A stretch of 64,000 nucleotides of DNA from positions 9,072,001 through 9,136,000 of the forward strand of contig NZ_JAPNKE010000002.1 in the NCBI RefSeq assembly GCF_026626665.1, written 5' to 3'. Below the pieces are notes generated by a model. That model was not told the origin of the DNA. It did no database searches and saw nothing but the letters and a program-made list of their open reading frames with translations. The first letter of the stretch is position 1; every line of letters begins with the position of its first letter. The position numbers and the translations under genes were made by a program. Positions 151 through 59,748 of this stretch are shown piece after piece. The stretch is from Nannocystis pusilla. Its GTDB lineage: Bacteria > Myxococcota_A > Polyangia > Nannocystales > Nannocystaceae.

Positions 151-266
151 ACATGTCCTTCGGGACATGAATCGACGTCCGCCGATGACGGGGCGCACGG
201 GCGGGCTGGCGGCGCGTCAGGAGCGGCGGGTCGTCGAATTGAACAAACATGTCCCGTGGGACATGT
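151..266. repeat. Two ACATGTCC-N4-GGACAKGY dyads
   Basis: Dyads at 151-170 (ACATGTCC TTCG GGACATGA) and 247-266 (ACATGTCC CGTG GGACATGT). The second lies 4 bp past the stop codon of the minus-strand glycosylase gene and could fold as a 9-bp hairpin in RNA. Both are perfect in the core and sit between convergent genes. Confidence 0.9.
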
Positions 267-270
267 GGTT

Positions 271-7447: not shown

Positions 7448-9187
7448 TCACCCGGGATCGATGCCTTCGGGGCACTCGCGGGTGCTGCCGAGCTTGAGGA
7501 CGCAGGCGGCGGCGGCGAAGCCGTTCTCGAAGGCGTCGCGGCGGAGGGTGCTGCGGTCGAGGCCGACCAGGCCCTCGAGGCGGCTCAGGTTCTTGAGCAG
7601 CTCGTCGCGGGAGATGCCGAACTCGGCGGCGGCGCGGCGCAGGTCGACGTCGAGCTCGAAGGCGATGTGGGCGGCCATGACGGGTTCGTAGCCGCCGACT
7701 CGCCCGGCCGAGCCGGTCTTCGCCAGGCTGGCGGCGAAGGTCTCGATGTCGCGCTGCTGTGCCCGGTCGAACACGTCCTGCGGCGCGTAGAGCTTGGCGA
7801 TCTGCTCCTGCTGGGCGGCGTCGAAGACGGTGTTGCTCTCGGCGTAGGCGCGGATCTCGTCGGTGGCGCGTCGCATGCCCTCGCTGTGACAGCTCATGCA
7901 GCTGAGGCCGTTGATGACCTCGGGCTCCTCGGAGACCTCGCCGTCGTGGACGATGGCGATCGGGGCGCGATCGATGCGAGCGCCGGCGCCGTCGACGATC
8001 ATGTAGCCCTGGAGACCGTTGGGCAGGGTGAAGATGATCTCGCCGCCGTCCTCGACGAAGTCGAGCGGTCGGACGATGATGTCCTTCTCGTCCTCGTTGT
8101 CGGCGAAGTCGTAGCTGAGCCAGTAGGCGCGGTAATCGGCGCTCGGGACCTGGTGACGCTCGATCACCCGGTTGGACCGCGAGACCTTCGAGTCGCGGAA
8201 GCCGGCGCGCAGCACCTCGTCGTGGTCGAGCTCGAGCTCCGCGAGGATGTTGGCGTCGACGTCGACGCCGAGCTCGCCCTCGAGCTCGGCGCGGGTGCCC
8301 GGGATGCCGAGGACGGTGTGGTAGAGCGGCGGCTGCGAGGCGGCCTCGATGAACCAGTCGCCCTTGACCGAGAACAGCTCGACCTCGGCGGCTTGCTGGA
8401 TCTTCCGCGCGTCGTCGGAGCGGAAGGCGATCGCGTACGGGTCGGCGGCGGTGATCTGGGCCCAGGTGTCGGCGGTCCAGCCGTAGTCGACGAGGTCGAT
8501 GCGGTAGATCGTGCGGGCCTCGTCGATCGCCTCGGGCACGCGGATGGTCGGCGCGAGCGAGAGGTGGTTTATCAGCTTGGCGAAGGCGTGGCGGTAGCCC
8601 TCGAGCTGCTCCTCGCAGAAGCCGGCGCTGTGGAGGTGGGCGAAGGTGACGTAGCGGGTGGTCCGCTGGCGCGCCGAGTCGAGCAGGGTGAGGTCGGCGA
8701 GGATCTCGGCGAGCACGTCGTCGTGGACGACGAACTCGTTGTCGAGGCAGCCGGGCTTCTGCGTGAGCTCGACGTCCTCGGCCGCCTCCTCGGCGGGGGT
8801 GCACACGTCGATCCAGCGCTCGATCGTGGCCTGCTCGTCGGCCGGCAGGTCGTCGGCGCCGACGGGCATCTCGCCGCGGGCGATCCGCTGGAACAGCAGG
8901 GAGTCGGCGGCGGCGCCCCGCACGACGTAGCCGTCGGCGATGAGGCCGTCGAGGTCGCTGACGCCGCCGAACTTGCCCTGGGTCTGGCCGCCGTCGTGGC
9001 AGGCGCCGCAGCGGGCCCGCAAGATGCCCTCGGTGGCGGCGCGGGTCTCGATGCACTCGGGGGTGACGAGGCCGGGGTCGTCGGCGGCGCCGGAGGTGTC
9101 GCCGCCCTCGCCGGCGGGCGGCGTCGGCAGGTTGCAGGCGGCGGCGAGGAGCAGCAAGGACGAGACGCGGGCGAGCGGGCGGATCAT
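7448..9187 (-). CDS. Cytochrome-c-type lipoprotein with two CxxCH haem motifs
   Basis: A 579-residue exported lipoprotein: signal peptide with lipobox LAAAC (Cys 18). Haem-binding motifs are CGACH at 60-64, in a segment resembling the Planctomycete-type cytochrome C domain (PSCyt1), and CMSCH at 430-434. The middle region is not recognised. Redox or electron-transfer work at the cell surface is inferred from the motifs. The start is ATG 9187; its Shine-Dalgarno (GGAGTT on the minus strand) sits inside the first unit of the repeat array at 9189-9466, an unusual arrangement. It is probably co-transcribed with the gene at 6499-7406. Confidence 0.85.
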   Translation of the reverse strand: MIRPLARVSSLLLLAAACNLPTPPAGEGGDTSGAADDPGLVTPECIETRAATEGILRARCGACHDGGQTQGKFGGVSDLDGLIADGYVVRGAAADSLLFQRIARGEMPVGADDLPADEQATIERWIDVCTPAEEAAEDVELTQKPGCLDNEFVVHDDVLAEILADLTLLDSARQRTTRYVTFAHLHSAGFCEEQLEGYRHAFAKLINHLSLAPTIRVPEAIDEARTIYRIDLVDYGWTADTWAQITAADPYAIAFRSDDARKIQQAAEVELFSVKGDWFIEAASQPPLYHTVLGIPGTRAELEGELGVDVDANILAELELDHDEVLRAGFRDSKVSRSNRVIERHQVPSADYRAYWLSYDFADNEDEKDIIVRPLDFVEDGGEIIFTLPNGLQGYMIVDGAGARIDRAPIAIVHDGEVSEEPEVINGLSCMSCHSEGMRRATDEIRAYAESNTVFDAAQQEQIAKLYAPQDVFDRAQQRDIETFAASLAKTGSAGRVGGYEPVMAAHIAFELDVDLRRAAAEFGISRDELLKNLSRLEGLVGLDRSTLRRDAFENGFAAAACVLKLGSTRECPEGIDPG

Positions 9188-9188
9188 G

Positions 9189-9466
9189 GGAACTCCTTCG
9201 GGACAGGAATGAAGGGACAGGCCGGCGGTCGGGCGAGCATCGGCCGGAAAATCTTCGAGACAGGTAAGAAAGGACAGGTCTCGGGCCAGGGGGAGTGAGT
9301 CGCCGGTGGCCGAGGTTACTTTTGAGACATGATCGAAGGGACAGGTCGTGCGGTGGCGCCGGTCGGGCCGGCGGTCGAGGTGCCGGGGGATAGGAACGAA
9401 AGGACAGGTCACGCGGTGGCGCCGGTCGGGGGCCGCATATTTGGGGACATGAATGAAAGGACAGGT
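9189..9466. repeat. Five-fold array of 14-bp-spaced ACAKGW pairs upstream of the cytochrome gene
   Basis: Pairs of hexamers 14 bp apart start at 9203/9217, 9260/9274, 9327/9341, 9390/9404 and 9447/9461. Each pair has the form ACAKGA-N8-ACAGGT. The pairs recur every 57-67 bp. Units 3-5 share GCGGTGGCGCCGGTCGGG between pairs. The array fills the gap between the TPR gene stop (9466) and the cytochrome lipoprotein start (9187) and would lie in the leader of the latter. Confidence 0.9.
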
Positions 9467-10383
9467 CAGGCTGTCGGCTCGGGGTGGGCGGCCAGCCACT
9501 CGTCGATGACGTGGACGCGGTCCGGGCGGCTGCGGCGGTCGCCGAGGACGCACCGGCGGGCCGCGAGGGCGCTGGCGCGGGCGGCCGCGGGATCGCGCGG
9601 CCAGAGGGCGCGGGCGAGGAGGAAGTGGCCGCGGGCGAGCAGGGCGGCCGGGGCGGGGGTCGAGGCGACGACCGCGAGGGCGTCGACGAAGCTGCGCTCG
9701 GCGGCGTCGCGCTGGCCGAGCTGGAGCTGGGCCTGGCCGCGGGTCATCCGCACCAGCGCGAGCGCGGGCCCGGCCTCGCCGCTGCAGCCGTCGAAGATCT
9801 GCAGCGCCCGCTCGAGGTGGGTCAGCGCCTCGGCGGCCCGCCGCAGCCGCAGCAGGACGGAGCCGAGGCTGGTCAGGGTGGTGGCGACCGTGGCGTGGGC
9901 CCAGCCGAGGACGCGCACCTTGATCGCCAGGGCGCCGAGGAAGTGGGTCTCGGCCTCCTGCAGCTGGCCGCGGCGGCGGGCGACGAAGCCGAGGTTGTGC
10001 AGGAGGACCGCGTCCTCGAGGCCGAGGGTGGGCCGCAGCGCCCGCGCGAGCTCGAGGCCGAGCTCGAACAGCGCCTCGGCCTGCGAGAGGTCGCCGCGGT
10101 GGACGGCGACCACGCCGAGCCGCCCAAACGCCTGCGGCAGGCCGAGCCGGGCCACGCCGCCGCAGCGCTGGCGCAGCTGCAGGGCGCCGCGGAAGTGCTG
10201 CTCGGCGGCGACGAGGTCGCGGTTGCTCAGGGCGACCTGGCCCAGGCGCTCGGCGAGCGCGAGGGCGTCGGCGTCGCGCGCGTCGACCCGCGAATCGGGG
10301 TCGGCCACCGGGGCGGAGACGGGGGAGAAGAAGAGGGTCGGAGAGACGTCGTCGGCGGCGTCGTCGGCGTAGAAGTGCAGCAT
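9466..10383 (-). CDS. Tetratricopeptide-repeat protein
   Basis: A 305-residue helical-repeat protein starting at ATG 10383. Several TPR units are visible, with the usual Ala/Leu/Gly pattern (for example LGQVALSNRDLVAAEQHF and LGFVARRRGQLQEAETHF). No signal peptide or catalytic motif is seen, so it is likely a protein-interaction module. It is divergent from the FHA/AAA+ activator gene across 175 bp and is upstream of the cytochrome operon on the same strand. Its TGA (9466-9468) overlaps the last hexamer of the repeat array. Confidence 0.8.
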   Translation of the reverse strand: MLHFYADDAADDVSPTLFFSPVSAPVADPDSRVDARDADALALAERLGQVALSNRDLVAAEQHFRGALQLRQRCGGVARLGLPQAFGRLGVVAVHRGDLSQAEALFELGLELARALRPTLGLEDAVLLHNLGFVARRRGQLQEAETHFLGALAIKVRVLGWAHATVATTLTSLGSVLLRLRRAAEALTHLERALQIFDGCSGEAGPALALVRMTRGQAQLQLGQRDAAERSFVDALAVVASTPAPAALLARGHFLLARALWPRDPAAARASALAARRCVLGDRRSRPDRVHVIDEWLAAHPEPTA

Positions 10384-17458: not shown

Positions 17459-18164
17459 GCGAGGACGCTTGGAGATGGTCGCGCAAAGCGCGGCGCGGCG
17501 CAAAGGCCGACATCGCGGTCCGAGAAGGCTATCACCCGCGACACGCGAAGCCAGCCCGCTGGCGCACACGCGGCCGCCGGCCCGCGGCCGAGCCCGGCAA
17601 GATCGCGCTCGCCCGCCTCACGCGAGGCCCGCGGACGGATCGCTCGCGGTGGGGGGAGAGGGCGGCCAGGCGAGCACCCGGGGCTCGCGCACCGAGGGGT
17701 CGGGCAGGCCGCGGCGATGCCCGGCGGCGACGACCGAGGTTGTGGGGCTCGCGGAACCGGATGCTGGTGACATGTCCTTTGAGGCATGTTGAAGATGTCG
17801 CGCTCTGGCTGCGCCTCCATCCGCGCTTCGACCCGCGGGCGGGGTCGTTCACGGACCTGCCCGAGAGGCTCGCGCGCTGAGGCGTCGCGCGGGGGACTCG
17901 AAGCGCCGGACGGCATGGGCCCTCCACCGCGTGGGTCGGTGGCTGCGGCGGAGCGGTGATCGGCGCACCGCGCGAAACGAGTGCAACGACGATGACGCCG
18001 GCTCGTCTTACTGACGAAGGCGCCGATCGATGGCGGACCGGTCAGGCCAGGTCATAGCATGTCCTTTAGAACATGTCCCATGCAACATTGTTGAAGCGCA
18101 TGCCCAACGAATACGTCCGTCGCCGCCGGGCTGAGGGCTGAATCGGCGGTGCGGACTGGATGGG
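17459..18164. other. 706-bp gap without a convincing gene
   Basis: No frame here has a recognisable domain or a good start. It holds dyad repeats at 17770-17789 (ACATGTCC TTTG AGGCATGT) and 18057-18090, where GCATGTCC TTTA GAACATGT overlaps ACATGTCC CATG CAACATTG, with hexamers 14 bp apart. Confidence 0.6.
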
Positions 18165-37929: not shown

Positions 37930-38074
37930 CGGCCCCAGTGTGCGCGCGACGACGGGGCGCGGGCAAGCCCGCGGGCGGCCGCGAGAGGGGGCGCCTCCGG
38001 GGTCGCGGGCGCGCGGGCGAGCGCGCCGTGCGACGGTCTGCTCCGGGGGCACGCCGCGCGGGCAGGCCATCGAG

Positions 38075-38110
38075 ACATGTCTTAATGGACATGTCTTTCA
38101 AGACATGTCC
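38075..38110. repeat. Run of three ACATGT hexamers, 14-bp period
   Basis: ACATGT at 38075, 38089 and 38103, joined by CTTAATGG and CTTTCAAG. Two overlapping dyads result. It lies between the LysM gene start and the GT39-like gene stop (38122). Confidence 0.92.
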
Positions 38111-47525: not shown

Positions 47526-47561
47526 ACATGTGACCCGAAAGACATGTCGAGAAAGACATGT
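47526..47561. repeat. Run of three ACATGT hexamers between divergent genes
   Basis: ACATGT at 47526, 47542 and 47556: the first step is 16 bp, the second 14. It lies between asd (start 47441) and the kinase gene (start 47636), where a regulator could act on both promoters. Confidence 0.9.
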
Positions 47562-47635
47562 TGAGGGCGCCCGCCCGGCGCCCGCCCGACGACCCCGACT
47601 TTCGGCGCGTCGCGGGTGACGGGCATACTCGCGGG

Positions 47636-57490: not shown

Positions 57491-57880
57491 GGGCCGAGGA
57501 GGCTCATGGGGCATGTCTGAAAGGACATGTCCGTCGGTCGCCCGGCGACGATGGGTGCAGAAGCCGCCGCGGAGCGGCGCGACGACCCGCGTGCCAGAGA
57601 CCCGCGCATGAGCCGGGCGGCCACCGGCCACGCGCTCGCCGGGCGGCCGCGTGGAGCTCGGCCATGAGTCTCATGAGACATGCTTTAAAGCATGTCCGTT
57701 CAGACATCATCCGGAGTTTTGGCCTTCGCCCGCGGCGCCCCGGTCCGCCGGTCACGCGCTCGGCGCCGGTCCGGTCCGGAAGGGCGCGGAGGGTGCGGAC
57801 CTCTTCATGAAAAATTTGCGGACCGATGTCGATTTGGCCGGTCCGGCTTCGACGTGGAGGTGACGGACAGGAGAACGGCC
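57491..57880. repeat. 390-bp gap with two dyad clusters, no gene
   Basis: 57511-57530 (GCATGTCT GAAA GGACATGT) runs on into another half-site to 57532. 57678-57695 is a perfect palindrome ACATGCTTTAAAGCATGT, overlapped by 57690-57709 (GCATGTCC GTTC AGACATCA). No coding frame is convincing in the gap. Confidence 0.85.
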
Positions 57881-58315: not shown

Positions 58316-58321
58316 CTCGGG

Positions 58322-58382
58322 ACATGCTCGAAGGGGCAGGTTTTAAGGGCATGCCGGAAGGGGCATGTTCTTCAAGACATGT
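58322..58382. repeat. Run of five hexamers with 13-14-bp period
   Basis: RCATGY/GCAGGT-type hexamers start at 58322, 58336, 58349, 58363 and 58377. It fills the whole 68-bp gap between the convergent stops at 58315 and 58384. It is the longest uninterrupted run in the window. Confidence 0.92.
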
Positions 58383-58383
58383 C

Positions 58384-59748
58384 TCAGGGGGCGCGCTGGA
58401 GGGTGATCGCAAACACCGCGCCGGGGCCTTCCTCGGCGGCGACGACGACCTGGCCGCCGTAGGCGTGGGCGATCTCGCGGGCGATGGTGAGGCCGAGGCC
58501 GGTGCCGCCGTCGTTGGCGCCGCGCTCGCGGGTGCCCCGGTAAAAGGCCTCGAAGATCTGCTCGCGCTCGGCAGCGGGCACGCCGGGGCCCTCGTCGCGC
58601 ACGCGCAGCTCGACGCGGGTGGGCCCGGGGCGGCAGCGGACGCTGACCTTGCCGCCCGGCGGGGTGTGGCGGACCGCGTTCTCGAGCAGGTTGCGGATCA
58701 GCCGCACCAGGTCGTGCGCGCGGCCGATGACGCGCGCGCCGGGGCCGTCCCACTCGATGCTCACGCCCTTCGCGTCGCTCTCGTGGCGGACCAGCGCGAT
58801 CGCCTCCTGGCCGAGCTCGGCGATGTCGACCGGCTCGCCGACCTCGTCGCCGGCGGCGCCCATGCGCGCGACGGCCAGCAGGTCCTCGGTGAGGCGACGC
58901 AGGCGCGAGGTGCTCTCGAGCGCCTCGCGGATGGCTCGCTCGTACTCGCTGGCGTCGCGCGAGCGGCGGAGCGCGTGCGACAGCTCGCCGTACAGGGTGG
59001 TGAGCGGCGAGCGCAGCTCGTGGGCGGCGTTGGCGACGAAGCGCTGCTGCAGGCCGAGCAGCAGGCCGAGGCGCTCGATCATCGCGTCGATGTCGCGGGC
59101 GAGCTGGACGATCTCGCGGTCGCCGTGCCGGAGGTCGATGCGGGCGGCGAGGTCGCCGGCGGCGACGCGGCGGGCGACCTCGGCGATCGTGCGGTGGTCG
59201 CGGGTGAGGCGGTGGACGACGGCGAGGGCGACGAGGACGGTCCACACCAGCGCGACCGCGAAGCCGGTGCCCATGGCGCGCTCGAGGAAGCGGGCGTCGC
59301 CGTCGAGGTCGGCGCGCGGGGCGGCGAGCAGCAGCGAGGAGCCCTCGTGCGAGGGCAGGTCGACGTGGACGGCGCGCAGGTGCTCGTGGGCCGACCACAG
59401 GTCGAAGCAGTTGCCGTCGGGCGGCGGCAGCTCGGACAGCGGCGGCGGGTCGCGCTGCCACGACAGGGTCTGGGCGATGACGCGGTCGCCGGGGCCGTAG
59501 ATGACGGCGTACTTGGTGAGGGGGCCGACGTCGTTGGCGAACGGGCCGGGGCGGTTGGAGATGGCGAGCTCGTCGCCGCCGAGCTTGTCGGCCTCGGCCG
59601 CCTCCTCGCGGGCCTCACGGACGAGGGCGAGGTCGAGCTGGTGCTCCTGGCTGGCGTTGACGGCGAGGGTGACGGCGATCGACGCGGCGCCGAGCGTGAC
59701 CAGGGTGATGGCCGAGGTCGCGACGACGTAGCGGACGCGGAGGCTCAT
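58384..59748 (-). CDS. Two-component sensor histidine kinase (metal-responsive type)
   Basis: 454 residues from ATG 59748. Two helices frame a sensor region of about 120 residues (first helix YVVATSAITLVTLGAASIAV, second ALVWTVLVALAVVHRL). HAMP: TIAEVARRVAAGDLAARIDL. The phospho-acceptor is in FVANAAHELRSPLTTLYGEL. ATP-binding boxes are NLLENAVRHTPPGG, DEGPGVP and GGTGLGLTIAREIA. It resembles CusS/CzcS sensors. Its ATG overlaps the response regulator stop (ATGA). Confidence 0.9.
   Translation of the reverse strand: MSLRVRYVVATSAITLVTLGAASIAVTLAVNASQEHQLDLALVREAREEAAEADKLGGDELAISNRPGPFANDVGPLTKYAVIYGPGDRVIAQTLSWQRDPPPLSELPPPDGNCFDLWSAHEHLRAVHVDLPSHEGSSLLLAAPRADLDGDARFLERAMGTGFAVALVWTVLVALAVVHRLTRDHRTIAEVARRVAAGDLAARIDLRHGDREIVQLARDIDAMIERLGLLLGLQQRFVANAAHELRSPLTTLYGELSHALRRSRDASEYERAIREALESTSRLRRLTEDLLAVARMGAAGDEVGEPVDIAELGQEAIALVRHESDAKGVSIEWDGPGARVIGRAHDLVRLIRNLLENAVRHTPPGGKVSVRCRPGPTRVELRVRDEGPGVPAAEREQIFEAFYRGTRERGANDGGTGLGLTIAREIAHAYGGQVVVAAEEGPGAVFAITLQRAP

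Follow-up and report, generated by a model that had tools for sequence, protein, structure and literature searches.

A five-copy repeat array lies between a TPR protein gene and a cytochrome lipoprotein gene of Nannocystis pusilla, and is a local, duplicated representative of a family of phased dyads that extends through the genus. The sites of this family are most likely recognised by a putative chromosome-wide DNA-binding protein, a reading that we draw from sequence patterns and hold with moderate confidence. The family is set apart by its dyad motif and exact phasing, by selection on its half-sites, by its placement at gene ends, and by its near-restriction to one genus. One genus of myxobacteria seems to have acquired, after its genes, thousands of sequence-specific sites that are maintained by selection. 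Should these be bound by a nucleoid or boundary protein, Nannocystis would offer a tractable system for studying how a genome-wide protein-DNA code comes to pervade a chromosome, and how high-GC bacteria end transcription when classical terminators are few. The locus also carries a caution, as a motif array at one gene can be the local expansion of a global signal. Our search of the literature on this sequence, or on any Nannocystis motif, returned nothing relevant. Throughout the text, the window is the whole 64,000-nt stretch of contig NZ_JAPNKE010000002.1 that was analysed (positions 9,072,001 to 9,136,000), and coordinates refer to it unless a contig is named.

The array between the TPR and cytochrome genes

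A preliminary description of the locus reported five hexamer pairs with an exact 14-bp spacing, recurring every 57-67 bp. All five were located in an array at 9189-9467, with start-to-start distances of 57, 67, 63, and 57 bp and every copy carries two hexamers, or GGACA-type halves, at a spacing of exactly 14 bp (Table 1). The hexamer pattern proposed for these pairs, ACAKGA-N8-ACAGGT, is exact in copies 3 and 5 only, copy 1 ending in ACAGGC, copy 2 beginning with ACAGGT, and copy 4 beginning with ATAGGA. The strict 24-mer of the array has five matches in the window, all within the array, and none in 100 dinucleotide shuffles. The view that the repeat is confined to the stretch from the TPR stop to the cytochrome start holds for this 24-mer within the window, but not for the underlying 14-bp-phased motif, which is found elsewhere in the window and in the genome.

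The gap between the two genes measures 278 bp and is filled by the array up to the ribosome-binding site. The Shine-Dalgarno sequence of the cytochrome gene (AAGGAG in the mRNA, positions 9193-9198 of the plus strand) directly abuts copy 1, and, having been placed inside the first unit, is more precisely described as lying within the extended repeat but outside the hexamer pair. At the opposite end, the final three bases of copy 5 are the TPR stop codon (9466-9468). The intervening sequence said to be common to the units is strong for copies 3 and 4, which are 86% identical across 42 nt including the flank, but not for the other copies. Recent local duplication would give such a likeness, and the common flank of copies 3 and 4 shows that the array was built in this manner. 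The copies are degenerate, scoring 11-20 bits per pair where the best sites of the family reach 30, and their halves are unequal, GGACA being strong and TGTCC weaker, so that the array would be a stretch of medium-affinity sites. They do not form the dyad hairpin, and the array sits between two genes on the same strand. The 579-aa lipoprotein matches Pfam cytochrome models only below their curated cut-offs, and a query with this protein against the named genome contigs gave no match.

Table 1. Array copies, adjoining genes, and further sites of the family in the window
Feature	Position	Strand	Remarks
Array copy 1 (GGGACAGGAATGAAGGGACAGGCCG)	9200..9224, repeat copy 9189-9221		adjoins the cytochrome start codon; pair score 11.6 bits
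Array copy 2 (GAGACAGGTAAGAAAGGACAGGTCT)	9257..9281, repeat copy 9246-9278		pair score 17.7 bits
Array copy 3 (GAGACATGATCGAAGGGACAGGTCG)	9324..9348, repeat copy 9313-9345		pair score 20.3 bits
Array copy 4 (GGGATAGGAACGAAAGGACAGGTCA)	9387..9411, repeat copy 9376-9408		pair score 11.0 bits
Array copy 5 (GGGACATGAATGAAAGGACAGGTCA)	9444..9468, repeat copy 9433-9465		pair score 18.6 bits
Downstream gene, 579-aa lipoprotein	7448..9187	-	two CXXCH haem motifs (CGACH, CMSCH)
Upstream gene, 305-aa TPR protein	9466..10383	-	TPR_12, E 1.4e-30
Two unit pairs	149-172, 245-268		gap between convergent genes; 22.3 and 24.8 bits
Three phased units	18055..18092		tandem gap; 25.2 bits
Three near-perfect phased units (AGACATGTCTTAATGGACATGTCTTTCAAGACATGTCC)	38073..38110		tandem gap; 29.7 and 30.3 bits
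Unit pair	47540..47563		divergent gap; 24.9 bits
Unit pair	57509..57532		directly past the stop of a gene; 28.0 bits
Five units in two runs	58320..58384		fill the 68-bp gap of a convergent gene pair; up to 26.8 bits

The window array is rich but not unique, since comparable multi-copy gaps exist elsewhere in the genome. Such gaps were noted in the same genome at C2:5066889-5067339, C2:1218391-1218862, and C2:1375038-1375352, some of them being made of tandem units of about 57-70 bp, and the richest holding about seven clusters in 450 bp.

A phased dyad throughout the Nannocystis genome

The dyad TGTCY-N4-RGACA is the elementary unit. Its copies follow one another head to tail with a step of exactly 14 bp, and RGACATGYC octamers (GGACATGTCC) make up the joints. 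Its properties were followed in a sample of 1.2 Mb taken from three places of the N. pusilla genome, together with 0.4 Mb from each of two relatives. TGTCC-N4-GGACA occurs in 170 perfect cases in the 1.2-Mb sample, compared with two each for spacers of three and five bases, and spacings peak at 14, 28, 42, and 56 bp. With a position model and a threshold above 14 bits, 785 pairs were counted at 14 bp in the same sample, as against 15-47 at the other spacings from 10 to 18 bp; one 400-kb block held 229 model pairs compared with 1-3 in first-order resamples, and both relatives, Nannocystis sp. RBIL2 (G004) and N. exedens (G005), show the same 14-bp peak. Genome-wide, GACAKG-N8-GACAKG is present 1,699 times (123 for the reversed-pattern control) and GACATG-N8-GACATG 1,166 times (0 for the control). 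The 1.2 Mb contain 530 clusters of two to seven units, corresponding by extrapolation to about 5,000 clusters in the 12 Mb of the genome. Within each half, the third base varies freely whereas TG and CA hardly change, a pattern like that of protein contacts. Spacers almost never recur between sites, the commonest being seen twice in 122 sites, and the flanks have no conserved tag, with nothing conserved outside the phased units; the sites are therefore not copies of one element.

The clusters are unevenly placed with respect to genes. Called genes take up about 74% of the sampled sequence, yet 340 of the 530 cluster midpoints fall outside them, the remaining 190 lying inside genes as delimited by crude gene calling. 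Convergent gaps carry 3.1 sites per kb, tandem gaps 1.3, and divergent gaps 0.9, and among gaps of 40-200 bp about 50% of the convergent ones have a site, compared with 2 of 51 divergent gaps. The stricter clusters of tandem gaps have a median position 67 bp past the upstream stop and 284 bp ahead of the next start. The gene calls are home-made, so single placements may be wrong, but the bias should be too large to hinge on them. The earlier proposal that the array is the leader of the cytochrome gene is thus too local: sites are spread through the whole genome, with gene 3' ends and convergent gaps favoured over promoters, and the array therefore tells little about the cytochrome gene in particular. 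As a separate observation, many single dyads lie within called genes between 20000 and 54000 of the window, and the in-gene sites of the sample have a reading-frame bias of 84/47/35.

In taxonomic terms, the motif is strong in six Nannocystis genomes, weaker in one partial genome, and weak in two related genera. Strict pairs number 1,260-2,174 in each of the five other Nannocystis genomes, 142 in a 6.6-Mb genome, and about 20-90 in two genera of the family, the rest of the family and class being at background, and a stricter form has 0-5 matches per genome in 140 other genomes of the phylum. Relatives with strict matches include N. bainbridge, N. poenicansa, N. exedens, and Nannocystis sp. RBIL2. 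The two related genera (g4 and g10) have few sites, often with AT-rich spacers; several lie upstream of lipoprotein genes and others beside an integrase, a reverse transcriptase, and an Mrr-type nuclease, and no common function was found among the genes adjoining these rare sites. Mesorhizobium genomes contain a repeated long palindrome, CCCCCTC-TGTCCTGCCGGACATGTCCGGCAGGACA-GAGGGGG, which matches the strict pattern and looks like a separate dispersed repeat; exact 28-bp matches in Mesorhizobium belong to this unrelated palindrome and were rejected as members of the family.

A change in the copy number of the unit among relatives, named at the outset as a check, was observed in the orthologous gap. 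The window has five copies, G004 three, and G005 three plus decayed remnants, and in G003, an assembly assigned to N. pusilla, the two genes are present in a more diverged form and the array is absent. Read in the mRNA sense, copy 1 and the Shine-Dalgarno sequence are nearly identical in the window, G004, and G005, while the rest of the gap drifts. Conservation at copies 5 and 1 is partly due to other causes, as these copies overlap the stop codon and abut the Shine-Dalgarno sequence, respectively.

Selection on half-sites and the proposed mode of binding

Half-sites are better conserved than the spacers that they enclose. Identity to G004 is 94% in half-sites compared with 79% in spacers (67 sites, p = 4e-11), and identity to G005 is 86% compared with 72% in the 4-bp spacer (48 sites, p = 3e-5). 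Conserved half-sites with drifting spacers indicate purifying selection on a DNA-recognition pattern. Changes in the dyads comprise 424 single-sided, 66 compensatory double, and 70 same-position non-compensatory double changes, the mutual information of the inner C/G positions is 0.015 (0.017 when shuffled), and about 41 compensatory sites above background were seen where independent halves predict about 37. The two half-sites thus change independently, without the covariation of an RNA hairpin. A U-tract past the arrays is absent, T having a frequency of 0.24 at the first base past the array ends and of 0.08-0.14 at the fourth and later bases, and an Rfam covariance-model scan of 8900-9700 gave no match at E up to 10. 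Intrinsic terminators were rejected on the lack of compensatory changes and of a T-run, and an RNA leader or hairpin on the absent covariation and the empty Rfam scan. The preliminary description had offered two readings of the array, a multi-site operator or an RNA control region. With the RNA reading set aside, a multi-site protein-binding array, made up of candidate binding sites, is the better of the two and is partly supported by the fixed spacing, the selection on half-sites, and the lack of compensation.

We propose that a putative sequence-specific protein would bind the sites in dimeric form or as paired dimers, with cooperativity from one phased unit to the next, and that it would act chromosome-wide in the manner of a nucleoid-associated protein instead of regulating a single gene. 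At sites after genes, the bound protein would leave promoters unblocked, and convergent transcription would meet there; its likely effects would be chromosome organisation or limited read-through, possibly between convergent genes. In the TPR/cytochrome gap, duplication of the intergenic stretch raised the number of copies to five. Any effect on the cytochrome gene might come from protein bound beside the ribosome-binding site, a speculative step, and specific control of this gene by the five copies is likewise speculative. A partial parallel is provided by the met boxes of MetJ, degenerate palindromic boxes that are bound cooperatively. MetJ operators resemble the Nannocystis arrays in being fixed-step runs of such boxes, but have a step of 8 bp and occur at few promoters, whereas the Nannocystis step is 14 bp and the sites number in the thousands. 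Several features count against the proposed chromosome-wide binder. With a step of 14 bp, or 1.33 helical turns, adjacent units do not share a face of the double helix, an unusual layout where simple dimers bind cooperatively; more than a third of the clusters lie inside called genes, and the array copies are degenerate.

Alternative explanations and candidate binders

The preference for gene 3' ends and convergent gaps would also be expected of elements that end transcription, either as RNA hairpins (GACATGTCC-N4-GGACATGTC), into which perfect dyads can fold, or as a protein roadblock situated between convergent genes, where it would halt RNA polymerase arriving from either side. In keeping with such a role, classical hairpin-plus-T-run terminators reach 8% in convergent gaps that lack a site, which is no higher than the 9% of reversed controls (1.2-Mb sample). 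This account is nonetheless unlikely given half-sites without covariation, arrays without a T-run, the many sites in genes, and the position of the window array between same-strand genes with copies that form no hairpin, although its protein-roadblock form may still hold and overlaps with the chromosome-wide binder that we favour. A new protein might polymerise on thousands of gene-end arrays, so that bound protein, not RNA hairpins, would insulate neighbours and end convergent transcription where intrinsic terminators are few, and this too we consider improbable. Somewhat less probable again is a local operator or RNA leader controlling the cytochrome lipoprotein gene. The array fills the entire gap to the ribosome-binding site, its copy 1 is the part that stays near-identical in three species, and sites are in weak excess upstream of lipoprotein genes (16 of 53 compared with 117 of 691, p = 0.024), but the motif is genome-wide with a preference for 3' ends, no Rfam model matches, and the more distant ortholog in G003 keeps both genes without the array.

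DNA uptake sequences are words of fixed form and orientation that lack tandem phasing. In its high copy number and restriction to one genus the Nannocystis motif recalls them, and the sites might by analogy be genus-specific tags that let competent cells take up DNA of their own kind, thousands of copies being spread along the chromosome much as in Neisseria and Pasteurellaceae, where such sequences are genus-specific and present in hundreds to thousands of copies (PMC2397512, PMC2346458). We regard this as very unlikely for a dyad that is degenerate, varies in its 4-bp core, and keeps strictly to a tandem phasing of 14 bp; its conservation in this form points to multimeric binding. Least probable, by a little, is a selfish repeat of the REP or MITE kind, disseminated by a transposase and tolerated where it lies at the ends of genes. 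REP elements are palindromes of 20-40 bp, mostly with a GTAG or CGTC tag (PMC3733652), and REP/BIME sequences and the Nannocystis sites are alike in being high-copy, short, palindromic, and extragenic; some loci also have tandem duplications of motif-carrying units of 57-79 bp. The tag and hairpin that define a REP element were nevertheless not found, as the flanks have no GTAG or CGTC tag and there is no hairpin covariation, and the sites are 14-bp phased dyads with half-sites under selection.

Among known binders, the strongest lead in the literature was CdbA of Myxococcus xanthus, a ribbon-helix-helix nucleoid protein and c-di-GMP receptor, which binds sequence-specifically and globally at hundreds of sites with an intergenic excess and with little effect on single genes; its site is an 18-bp matrix, a direct repeat with a 4-bp gap (PMC7156744). 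Many sites, an intergenic excess, and repeated half-sites are features shared with the Nannocystis motif. A clear CdbA ortholog of 69 aa is present in Nannocystis (L223:1468-1677; match to PDB 6sbw, E 2.6e-26), is 100% identical in six Nannocystis genomes, and was found in 57 of the 59 relatives sampled. The CdbA step, inferred from the length of the matrix, is about 11 bp, compared with 14 bp here, model pairs numbering 17 and 785 at these spacings, and CdbA is at least 94% identical in three genera (g6, g9, and g11) in which motif counts equal background. CdbA as the sole determinant was rejected on this spacing and on its presence in motif-free genera. MrpC, a CRP-family protein of M. xanthus, has the site TGTYN8RAC with about 1,600 ChIP-seq sites, mainly at promoters (PMC4320627). 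Both systems use dyads of TGTY half-sites, but those of MrpC are N8-spaced and promoter-located, whereas the Nannocystis motif is TGTC-N6-GACA and avoids promoters. A MrpC- or CRP-type site was rejected, as TGTCC is followed by GGACA at a distance of 11 in no case and at a distance of 9 in 170.
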